Of a DNA stretch of 37,628 nt, positions 21,589 to 37,628 are shown one piece after another (position 1 is the first letter of the stretch; every line of letters begins with the position of its first letter). The position numbers and the translations under genes are program-made. The stretch covers positions 1-37,628 of the forward strand of contig JAJZPM010000039.1 in assembly GCA_021811105.1 (NCBI GenBank), written 5' to 3'. Under the pieces are notes generated by a model, which saw only the letters and a program-made list of their open reading frames with translations, searched no databases and was not told the origin of the DNA. This stretch comes from Nitrospirota bacterium (GTDB lineage Bacteria > Nitrospirota > Thermodesulfovibrionia > Thermodesulfovibrionales > UBA6898).

Positions 21589-24500
21589 CTATCCCTCCAG
21601 CGTCCACTTTGCGAGATGTTTGAGGTATTTCCATCTCCTCTTGACATTCGCCTCGGCCTGCTTCATGAGTTCGGCAGCAAGGTCGGGATTGCTCATCTTC
21701 AACGCGCGGTAGCGGTTTTCCCTGTACGCATACTCTTCGAAAGAGATCGTCGGCTCGGCGCTGTCGATAATGAAGGGCGGCTTGCCCTGGGCCTCGAGTT
21801 CCGGGTTGTAGCGGAAAAGCGGCCAATGGCCGCAGGCGACCGCCTTCTTCTGCTCCTCGATGCCCTTGCCCATATCAATGCCCTGGGCGATGCAGGTCGC
21901 GTAGCAGACTACGAGGGAAGGTCCGGGGTACGCCTCGGCTTCGGCCAGTGCCCTGACCGCCTGCGCCTGGTTTGCACCGAAGGCGACCTGCGCCACATAG
22001 ACATTGCCGTACGTGGTCATGATTGCGCCGATACTCTTTTTCGGGGTCCTCTTTCCACCCGCGGCAAACTGCGCCATCGCACCCAGCGGCGTGGACTTGG
22101 ACATCTGGCCGCCGGTATTGGAGTAGACCTCAGTGTCGAGGATCATGACATTGATGTTCTCGCCTGAGGCAAGGACATGGTCCAGGCCGCCGTAACCTAT
22201 GTCATAGGCCCACCCGTCACCGCCGATCGTCCAAACAGACTTTTTCACGAGATAGTCTGCAAGCGAGAGCAGGCTCTTCGCCTCAAAAGACCTGTCAGCT
22301 GCAATCAGCTTCTTCAGCTCATCAACGCGGCTGCGCTGCTCTTCTACGCCTTTCTGGTTTGACTGGTCCGCCGCAGAGAGGGCTTCGAAAAGCGCCTTCG
22401 CGCCGGAATAGGCAGGCATGGAGGCAACTCTCTCCACCAGTTCGAGGGCCTGTGCATTGAACTTGTCCACCGTCTGCCGCATTCCGAAGCCGAATTCGGC
22501 GTTGTCTTCGAAAAGGGAATTCGACCACGCAGGGCCCCTCCCGTCGGACCTCGTCGTATACGGCGTCGTCGGGAGGTTGCCGCCGTAAATCGAGGAGCAT
22601 CCGGTTGCATTGGCGATCAGGAGGCGATCGCCGAAAAGCTGGGACAACAGCTTGATATAGGGTGTTTCGCCGCATCCCGCGCATGCGCCGCTGTACTCGA
22701 AAAGAGGCCTCACGAGCTGGCTTCCCTTTATTGTCATCGCATTGAACCGCGAAGGATCGGTTTCGGGCAGGGAAAGGAAAAACTTGTAGTTCGCCGCCTC
22801 CGTCTCCCTCAGGGGCTCCTGGAGACTCATGTTGATCGCCTTGAAACCGGGGATCTTGTTCCCCTCCGCGTCCTTCTTGCTCGCGGGACAGACGAATACG
22901 CAGGAACCGCAGCCGGTGCAGTCTTCGGGCGCCACCTGGACGGTGTATTTGAGTCCCTTGAGGTCCTTGCCGGTCGCATCGACCGACTTGAAGGTCTTGG
23001 GCGCGTCCTTCAGAAGCGAAGGCTCGTAAGCTTTCAGTCTGATCGTTGCATGGGGGCAGACAAAAGAACACTGGCCGCACTGTATACAGATATCCGGCTC
23101 CCAGACGGGGATATGGATCCCGATATTCCTCTTTTCGTACCGTGTCGTTCCCGTGGGCCATGTGCCGTCTTCAGGCATGGCCGAAACCGGCAGGGAATCG
23201 CCATTGCCCGCGATCATCTTTGCGGTCACATTCTTTATGAATTCCGGCGCATCCTCCGGCACAGGCTGCCTCATCCTCTTTTTGCTCGTCACCTTGCCCG
23301 GCACCGGGACTTCGACGATATTTTTGAGCGCCTCGTCTACGGCGGCGTAGTTCATATTCACCACCTGCTCGCCCTTTTTCATGTAGGTCTTCTTGATCTG
23401 TTCCTTTATCGACTTGATCGCATCTTCCTTCGGGATGATCCCGGCGATCACGAAAAAGGCGGTCTGCATGATCATGTTGATCCTTGTGCCGAGCCCCAGT
23501 TCCTCGGCGAGGGAAACAGCATCGATAATGTAAAACTTCATCTTCTTGGAGATGAGCTGTTCCTGGACTTCGGCAGGCAGGGTATCCCATACCTCGTCTT
23601 TCTTGTGCAGCGTTGTCAGGAGAAACGTCGCTCCCTCCTCCGCCTTTGAGAGCATGTCGTACTTTTCGAGGAACGAGGTGTTATGGCAGGCGATAAAATT
23701 CGCCGCGGGCACGAGATAGGGATTGTGGATCTTTTCCTTGCCGAACCTGAGATGCGATATGGTGATCGCACCGGACTTCTTCGAGTCATAGACGAAATAA
23801 CCCTGCGCGTAATTTTCCGTCTCGGTCCCGATTATCTTGATCGTGTTCTTGTTCGCTCCGACTGTGCCGTCAGCGCCGAGTCCGTAGAACAGCGCGCGGA
23901 ACACCCCCTTCCCCTCGATGCGGAAGGACTCGTCATATGCGAGACTCGTGCCGGCTACGTCGTCGTTGATTCCGACGGTAAAGTGGTTCTTCGGAGAGGA
24001 TGCCGACAGGTTGTCTAATACCGCCTTGACCATGGCGGGGGTAAAGTCCTTCGAGCCGAGTCCGTAACGGCCCCCGACTATCTTCGGATAATTCGTAAAC
24101 GGCGCGGTCTTCTTTTCCATCGCCTCGCCGACTGCGGTCCTCACGTCAAGATAAAGGGGCTCCCCTATCGCTCCCGGCTCCTTAGTGCGGTCAAGCACGG
24201 CGATTGCCTTGACTGTGGCAGGCAGCGTCCTGACGAAATCATCGATCGAGAAGGGCCTGAACAGTCTCACGCTCACGAGGCCCAGTTTCTCTCCCTTTGC
24301 GTTCAGGGCATCGACCGTGCTCTCCACCGTTTCGGCGGCAGAGCCCATGACAACGATGACCCGCTCCGCTTCCGGCGCGCCGTAGTAGTCAAAGAGGTGG
24401 TACTTGCGTCCTACGACAGCCGCAAATTTGTCCATGGCCTTCTGCACGTTCGCCGGCGTAGAGTTGTAGTAACGGTTGACCGTCTCCCTGCCCTGGAAAT

Positions 24501-36774: not shown

Positions 36775-36838
36775 AGGTTCTCCCTCTCCAAAAAACGTTT
36801 CGATATATTAGCACATGCGGATATTTTAAGAAAAACTG

Positions 36839-36916
36839 ATCGAGTAGGAGGCAGGGGATTAGTTCGCCTGCCGTCCTCTCACACCACCGTACGTGCCGTT
36901 CGGCATACGGCGGTTC
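36839..36916 (-). mobile_element. 3' end of a group II intron (domains V and VI, outer intron)
   Basis: On the minus strand, after the reverse transcriptase stop, the sequence GAACCGCCGTATGCCGAACG continues GCACGTACGGTGGTG. It pairs as a domain V hairpin (about 36883-36916). It is followed by a second hairpin (GGCAGG...CCTGCC) and the terminal CCTACTCGAT. The intron boundary is therefore close to 36839. The next bases belong to the aspC leader. Confidence 0.8.
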
Positions 36917-36921
36917 GTAAA

Positions 36922-37505
36922 TTATAAAGACCTGTAGACATCGAGAAGTCCGATAAGACCCGCGCGACGAAAGTAACGGTTGTTCAGGGTCGTCGATAAG
37001 ACAGGGCTATTGGATACGTGCCAGCAGCCTTTCCTTGTATTGGCAAACTGCCACGCCTTACGGTTGTCCAATCCGAGACGTACGAGGTTATCGTGCTTCG
37101 TCCCGATCTTCTTCCATTGCTTCCAATAGCACATGCGCAAACGCCTTCTTATCCACTCATCGAGTCTCCCGCAGTGCCCTCGCATGTCCGCTATCCGAAA
37201 GTAGCCGAGCCAGCCATGTACCGCCTGATTCAGCCTTCTAATTCGAGCCTCCATGCTCCGTGCCTTGCTCCTCGACGTGATTGCCCTTATTTTGTCCTCA
37301 AACCGCTTCAGGGACTTCGGATGTGTTCTCACCCGTGCTTCCCCTTCCTTCTGGTAAAAGGAAAAACCGAGAAACTTCCGCCTTTGAGGATAATCCACCG
37401 CGCTTTTCTTCTGGTTGACCTTCAGCTTCAATCGCTCTTCGAGGAACTTGCCTATACCGGCCATTACCCGCTGACCTGCCCTCATGCTTTTGACGTAGAT
37501 ATTAC
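36922..37505 (-). pseudogene. ltrA: Group II intron reverse transcriptase/maturase, C-terminal part, interrupted
   Basis: From about 37505 the minus strand encodes NIYVKSMRAGQRVMAGIGKF, LKVNQKKSAVDYPQRRKFLG, then the maturase X domain (RRLNQAVHGWLGYFRIADMR, LDEWIRRRLRMCYWKQWKK) and ends DVYRSL. This is the end of a bacterial group II intron protein, starting just after where the YADD active-site motif should be. The preceding bases do not continue the reverse transcriptase; they are the domain V/VI end of another group II intron. The catalytic palm and N-terminus are therefore separated from this part. No HNH endonuclease domain follows. The frame extending to 37623 is a readthrough of intron RNA sequence and not protein. 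Confidence 0.85.
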
Positions 37506-37628
37506 GGTGAGTAGACCGGCGGAGCTGCCCCGCCAGTCCCTCGCAGAACCGGACGTGAACCTCTCGGCTCATCCGGCTCCCATCATCCAGCCGCAGGAAG
37601 CGTTCCCATCTGCCAGTGCGCAAAAAGT
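37506..37628 (-). mobile_element. 3' end of a second, inner group II intron (runs off window)
   Basis: On the minus strand GAGCCGGATGAGCCGAGAGG continues TTCACGTCCGGTTCT (37545-37579). This is a domain V hairpin with AGC triad and GAGA tetraloop. A GC-rich domain VI-like hairpin (GGCGGGGCAGCTCCGCC) follows, ending CTACTCACC near 37506. It abuts reverse transcriptase codons on the 3' side. The body of this intron is outside the window. Confidence 0.75.

Follow-up and report, generated by a model that had tools for sequence, protein, structure and literature searches.

The end of a 37,628-nt contig from a Nitrospirota bacterium (assembly GCA_021811105.1, contig JAJZPM010000039.1; the window, i.e. 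the whole stretch of DNA that was analysed, which is the whole of contig C28) carries the 3' part of what we read, with a probability of about 0.88, as a twintron: a class C group II intron whose reverse transcriptase (RT) gene is split at the codons of the YADD catalytic motif by a second intron, of class D, that homes to YADD codons and on whose splicing the retromobility of the outer intron would depend. The architecture, the position of the inner intron, the restoration of the outer reading frame, the empty site of the outer intron and, across the relatives, the match between exon-binding site 1 (EBS1) of the inner intron and intron-binding site 1 (IBS1) of its host are read directly from the sequences; the inner 5' end in this particular genome, the splicing in vivo and the ensuing dependence are predicted from them.

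The features at the end of the window are collected in Table 1. An earlier note, made from the letters of the window alone, had described two domain V/VI modules on the same strand, some 590 nt apart, and both are indeed matched by the Rfam group II model on the minus strand, the upstream hairpin thereby scoring as a genuine domain V; relative to shuffled sequences they fold with z-scores of -5.6 (inner) and -6.9 (outer). The downstream module had been taken to close the intron that encodes the C-terminus of an RT, and this holds, as a maturase C-terminus lies upstream of it (PF08388 GIIM, 81.6 bits; NCBIfam TIGR04416, model positions 217-353, i.e. the C-terminal part) and the empty site in sister genomes falls exactly at its end. 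The upstream module ends where RT codons resume after the position of YADD, again as the note had it: the outer 3' exon opens with GT|AAT ATC TAC GTC, in which GT completes the cysteine codon that follows YADD, and reads on as NIYVKSMRAGQ..., in a frame that agrees with the YADDCNIYV of uninterrupted and in-silico spliced relatives. Unspliced, the outer protein stops just past YADD (TGT GCG CCA...). The contig itself breaks off inside the open reading frame (ORF) of the inner intron's own intron-encoded protein (IEP), of which the window's copy holds the last 14 codons; that this protein is of the RT-X type and ~420 aa long is read from relatives.

Table 1. Features of the inner and outer introns at the end of the window
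Feature	Position	Strand	Basis
Inner IEP C-terminus, 14 codons LFAHWQMGTLPAAG + stop	37583..37627	minus	translation; aligns with LFAHWKIGILPSAG* of Enterococcus avium and with other inner IEPs
Inner intron domains V/VI	37506..37581	minus	RF00029, 58.2 bits, E 4.4e-9; aligned with relatives
Inner intron 3' end CTACTCACC	at 37506	minus	bulged A 7 nt upstream, in domain VI
Outer RT/maturase 3' exon, 193 aa + stop, maturase domain X	36922..37505	minus	GIIM, TIGR04416, frame
Outer intron domains V/VI	36839..36915	minus	RF00029, 46.4 bits, E 3.5e-6
Outer intron 3' end CTACTCGAT	at 36839	minus	empty site 36838/36839 in sister genomes
Outer intron 3' flank	36779..36838	minus	in G018 (G017 by blastn) directly after the terminator that precedes the outer 5' half on C45

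The remainder of the outer gene lies on other contigs of the same genome. Three matches to the RVT_1 family are present, two of which (on C45, minus strand, and on C11) are cut off by the end of the contig at an identical codon; both of these outer RT 5' halves close with ...GHRFCRYA and lack the last two codons, DD, of YADD. The outer RT N-terminus, which the earlier note had proposed to seek beyond the window, is therefore present, ending in ...CRYA at the end of C45. The 3' half with the inner domain V occurs exactly twice in the genome, on C28 and on C3. At the breaks, C45 and C11 share exactly 127 bp and C28 and C3 likewise share exactly 127 bp, which indicates that one and the same repeat, namely the inner intron, was collapsed out of both outer copies; from the shared lengths we infer that a de Bruijn assembler was run at k = 127. 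Searches of the assembly for the RT family, the inner 3' end and the outer halves failed to recover the missing contig of the inner intron and returned only C45, C11, C28 and C3, plus an RT on C52.

The halves can be paired by means of an empty site. In the sister genome G018 (L073) the 2000 nt upstream of the outer intron on C45 meet the downstream flank of C28 base to base in a blastn comparison, the joint reading ...CCGGCCTGTCCCTTTCTCTT|CAGTTTTTCTTAAAATATCC, and a second sister, G017 (L074), supports the empty site (blastn), although a few bases fail to align at the joint. As a consequence, C45, the inner intron and C28 make up one element, and C11 and C3 by elimination make up the other copy. 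The nesting proposed in the note, i.e. an inner intron within the protein gene of an outer one, is thereby borne out: the outer halves lie in frame around an inner domain V, with an empty site for the outer intron in sister genomes, and the inner 5' boundary is visible in the relatives only. Moreover, an uninterrupted relative in G019 (L078) reads YADDCNIYVKS continuously across the site.

On C45 as well as on C11 the flank consists of a terminator hairpin and T-run, followed by the start of the outer intron, GTGCGCCC, and the outer 5' RNA matches the Rfam families D1D4-3 (150 bits) and D1D4-1 (~70 bits). It is this combination of terminator insertion and RNA type that assigns the outer elements to class C (IIC). 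Their protein is of the RT-X type, ending after domain X without an endonuclease. The two outer copies differ by ~9%, their frames are open and the ratios of non-synonymous to synonymous substitution (dN/dS) are 0.16 and 0.18, the copies having been under purifying constraint.

A pattern spanning the inner domain V and the NIYV codons was run against a collection of 84,980 species genomes and gave 24 loci, most of them true; the 3' junction pattern retrieved no further genome among 396 genomes of the phylum. Complete twintrons are present in E. avium (L051, L053 and L055), Paenibacillus (L054), Ureibacillus (L062), a Nitrospira metagenome-assembled genome (MAG; L065) and Alicyclobacillus (L069), in the order outer RT N-half, inner RT of ~420 aa, inner domain V, RT C-half. 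Rfam detects outer D1D4-3 and D1D4-1, inner D1D4-2 and the inner domain V in L051, L054, L062, L065 and L069, and scores the outer domain V in the last four of these and not in L051; the RNA modules follow one another in this order. The inner introns of the complete relatives are ~1.86 kb long and RmInt1-like, and lie one base past the YADD codons, with the 5' junction GAYGAYT|GTGYGCCAYGAA (intron start GTGYGCCAYGA) and the 3' junction CTACTYRNY|GYAAYATH, the split codon being the TGY that follows YADD. All of them carry a D1D4-2 RNA, and their IEPs end directly before domain V, which leaves no room for an endonuclease domain, and are 60-69% identical to plasmid-borne IEPs from rhizobia and others. 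From its resemblance to RmInt1 we take the inner element to be of class D (IIB3). Joining the exons in silico yields an uninterrupted outer RT in 9 of the 11 loci that could be evaluated (L051, L054, L055, L065, L069, L083, L085, L087 and L088).

The precision of the site has a counterpart in the inner intron itself. Every inner intron has, approximately 250 nt from its start, a stem-loop, and the loops can be aligned across all of them. In the YADD-site introns this loop reads AGTCGTT (RNA AGUCGUU), which is complementary to GAYGAYT and places a G opposite both third codon positions; the sequence recurs in all YADD-site introns examined but one (L085, TGTCGTT, where the exon ends in A). Hosts that spell the two aspartates GAC/GAC, GAC/GAT, GAT/GAC or GAT/GAT all face the same loop. 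In a matrix of loops against exons, AGTCGTT pairs at 7/7 positions with every GAYGAYT exon and at 5 or fewer with the exons of other sites, and introns at those other sites have different loops, which match their own exons. These matches strongly indicate that the loop represents EBS1, with a specificity for the aspartate codons.

Different guides were observed in further class D introns. Four of them (L086, L090, L093 and L095) share the EBS1 TGATGTT and occupy sites of the form GA(C/T)AT(T/A/C)A, and in the first three the downstream frame resembles a transposase of the insertion sequence (IS) type (GWLYLAVV-like); motifs conserved in the proteins of mobile elements may represent a general type of target for class D. 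A related class D intron in Neochlamydia pS13 (L091) follows TATGCAGACTAAG and has the EBS1 CTTAGTT; its site resembles a run of YAD codons that has become a stop, and its specificity may have shifted.

Plasmids were searched by tblastn with the inner protein as query, i.e. without binding the search to any site. The YADD 5' junction is present in 8 of the 18 plasmid records, a fraction that is somewhat biased since two records were chosen because their match crossed the junction; the remaining introns lie in IS-type transposase genes or elsewhere. That the YADD site might be an artefact of the first pattern, in which NIYV-like codons were fixed, is made unlikely, as plasmid searches with the inner IEP and with the inner 3' end also gave YADD junctions, some of them in hosts without NIYV. 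The host on the Alkalihalophilus plasmid pBpOF4-01 (L087) is a 621-aa IEP that carries a long extension at its C-terminus and is annotated as three distinct genes; in Vibrio pVPH2 (L088) the interrupted RT continues with ILIFCR after YADD; in Bradyrhizobium (L089) the host is a class D intron, both RNAs being D1D4-2; further class C hosts occur in S. meliloti pSymA (L084) and Peribacillus (L085); and in G125, from the same order as the window's genome, the 5' YADD junction lies inside a D1D4-7-type host intron (L081). In two viral sequences (IMG/VR 2698536665_000003 and 2636416106_000016; L082 and L083) the intron sits at the YADD of an RT around which no other group II RNA was detected and whose best PADLOC matches are defence RTs, RT_XI/XII-like (RT-Protease_XI, 88.7 bits over the N-half); in L083 both RT exons are in one open frame. 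Judged by these sequences, the bacterial taxa with YADD-site relatives are Bacillota, Nitrospira, Vibrio, Bradyrhizobium and Sinorhizobium, to which a phage contig is added. Such an arrangement is easy to overlook, since genome annotation breaks each of these genes up into two or three 'reverse transcriptases'.

Two loci depart from the standard arrangement. In a Firmicutes MAG (UBA3567; L059) the inner intron at the YADD site measures 758 nt and has lost most of its ORF, i.e. it is an ORF-less derivative. In a Spirochaetales MAG (L061, 2434-3035) an RT with a class C-like first half and a class D-like second half is followed by a class D domain V and a class C C-terminus, possibly a recombinant between outer and inner introns.

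The two copies in the window's genome and the three in E. avium provide clues regarding the dynamics of homing. In the former, the visible inner end is identical between outer copies that have diverged as described above. On the 5' side, C11 and C45 show 1 mismatch in the 225 nt beside the break as against 57 in 400 nt farther away (positions 227 to 626), and on the 3' side the divergence between C28 and C3 begins at once (11 in 100); a similarity confined to one side would be consistent with 5'-exon co-conversion in the course of homing, a plain gene-conversion tract being possible as well. In E. avium three twintrons lie behind three different terminators, with 0 differences in 1864 nt between the inner introns and 4-14 differing positions between the outer ones, which indicates recent, independent homing of the inner intron into outer introns that were already dispersed. 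Movement of the E. avium twintron as a unit was considered and rejected, as the same figures are better explained by independent homing or conversion. Monophyly of the YADD-site introns found no support either: a tree built from 25 class D proteins requires five changes of state for this site, and the specificity for YADD is therefore recurrent, or old and sometimes lost, rather than the property of one clade.

Taken as a mechanism, the above runs as follows. A class C intron is inserted just downstream of a transcription terminator, and its RT gene is split one nucleotide after the GAYGAY of YADD (YADD T|GY N IYV) by a class D intron of ~1.86 kb with an RT of its own, whose lineage would home to YADD codons by pairing AGUCGUU with GAYGAYU, G-C or G.U pairs accepting either aspartate codon. 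The outer protein is truncated at its active site as long as the inner intron is not spliced out; since the unspliced product ends just after YADD, a working outer RT should require inner splicing, and class D (RmInt1-type) introns generally require their own protein to splice in vivo. The retromobility of the outer intron, and of any ORF-less relative that uses its protein, would thereby depend on the inner element, which in turn would gain a dispersed and conserved landing site. Such dependence is, in our judgement, the most likely reading of the arrangement.

Several observations weigh against the twintron explanation as a whole. The seven nucleotides GAYGAYT and 1.8 kb of inner 5' sequence are absent from the assembly, and the 5' splice site and EBS1 are taken from relatives. 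The exons of L088 and L089, which end in A and G, pair at 6/7 positions and leave the last IBS1 base unpaired. The low dN/dS of the outer copies may predate the inner insertion. Finally, some copies are dead, as the outer frame is broken in L062 (by a stop) and in L059 and the inner IEP is frameshifted in L054.

Among the alternatives, the inner intron may act as a brake, its inefficient splicing limiting the outer element to the benefit of the cell rather than of either intron. RmInt1 within its IS transposase has been interpreted in this way (PMC4238363), and sister introns of the present ones also reside in IS-type transposase genes; nevertheless, selfish homing by itself accounts for both the codon tolerance of the guide and the recent, independent insertions, and we consider such a brake unlikely. 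We are more doubtful still that the composite is dead, i.e. that the inner intron no longer splices and both elements decay without any dependence: the broken frames of L062, L059 and L054 and the poor ligation of exons by RmInt1 in vivo (PMC4238363) speak for it, whereas the open outer copies in the window's genome with their dN/dS of 0.16-0.18, the intact inner IEP end and domain V, and the full outer frame restored in nine relatives speak against it. A simple recombination junction or assembly chimera of two unrelated intron copies, which the position at a contig end might suggest given that collapsed repeats can yield chimeric ends, is refuted as far as sequence can do so by the same junction at two diverged loci of this genome, by base-exact equivalents in complete sequences (pBpOF4-01, L087; Vibrio pVPH2, L088; the E. 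avium supercontigs) and by the empty site, which shows the outer element to be a clean insertion. Returning to the twintron with a dependent outer element, we lean towards the broader view that a widespread class D lineage has specialised on YADD codons by means of a guide that is degenerate at third positions, and would parasitise unrelated retroelements (several group II classes and a defence-type phage RT), making each of them dependent on the splicing of the class D intron.

Two other sets of group II sequences are present in G000. An ORF-less class C intron (L022; C12, ~22261-22990) with D1D4-3 and D1D4-1 and a domain V 83% like the outer one begins directly after a cobalamin riboswitch terminator and extends to shortly before a gene. 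This intron may rely in trans on the outer protein of the twintron, and could link termination at the riboswitch to splicing. Another, near-identical domain V/VI 3' end is present at C55:55-124, C55:1046-1115, C66:72288-72357, C66:75306-75375 and C61:153-222. The copies come in pairs separated by 1-3 kb and lie close to the ends of contigs; no RT was found in their vicinity, and they probably represent a second intron family, fragmented or collapsed.

Bacterial twintrons have been described as rare and from few genomes. Here a single precise site in RT genes, the active-site codons, is occupied across several phyla and in quite different RTs. A selfish RNA can apparently aim at a protein motif rather than at a gene, by placing G opposite third codon positions; the arrangement is a candidate example of two retroelements linked by obligate dependence, and splicing of such an intron could switch a phage or defence RT on or off. 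We found no description of a YADD-homing lineage in the literature, the coverage of which was partial and did not include the original Methanosarcina study. That study, by Dai and Zimmerly (2003), reportedly speaks in its title of homing into related intron ORFs. According to a later account (PMC4424553), as many as five introns are nested in arrays in Methanosarcina acetivorans, and lineage D is represented among the archaeal introns; an overlap of their insertion site with the YADD site is possible. Twintrons are also mentioned for Wolbachia (PMC8919778).

Sequential splicing of a bacterial group II twintron has been shown in vivo for Trichodesmium T.e.I7/T.e.I8, in which, unlike here, the inner intron sits in the ribozyme sequence of its host intron and the composite in a cellular gene (PMC4649490). 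Ordinary bacterial class C (IIC) introns share the terminator insertion, the D1D4-3/-1 RNA and the RT-X protein with the outer intron but are uninterrupted, whereas the IEP gene is here split at YADD. The likeness to Thermosynechococcus that the earlier note had drawn stands in part. In Thermosynechococcus elongatus TeI3 lies inside TeI4, i.e. one intron is nested in the protein gene of another, and as here the inner copies are identical and the outer copies diverged; the inner intron there has no ORF and is placed between two start codons, such that the protein can be made without splicing (PMC2882425), whereas the inner intron described here is of class D, has an IEP of its own, the C-terminus of which is seen in the window, and interrupts the catalytic motif. 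A close counterpart of the inner intron is RmInt1 of Sinorhizobium meliloti, which resides in ISRm2011-2 and resembles it in IEP class, RNA type, the lack of an endonuclease and homing into the gene of a mobile-element protein; its IBS1, GAUGAGA, even resembles GAYGAYU, but its target is an IS transposase recognised by the EBS1 UUUCGUC (PMC4238363), whereas the targets here are RT genes and the EBS1 is AGUCGUU.
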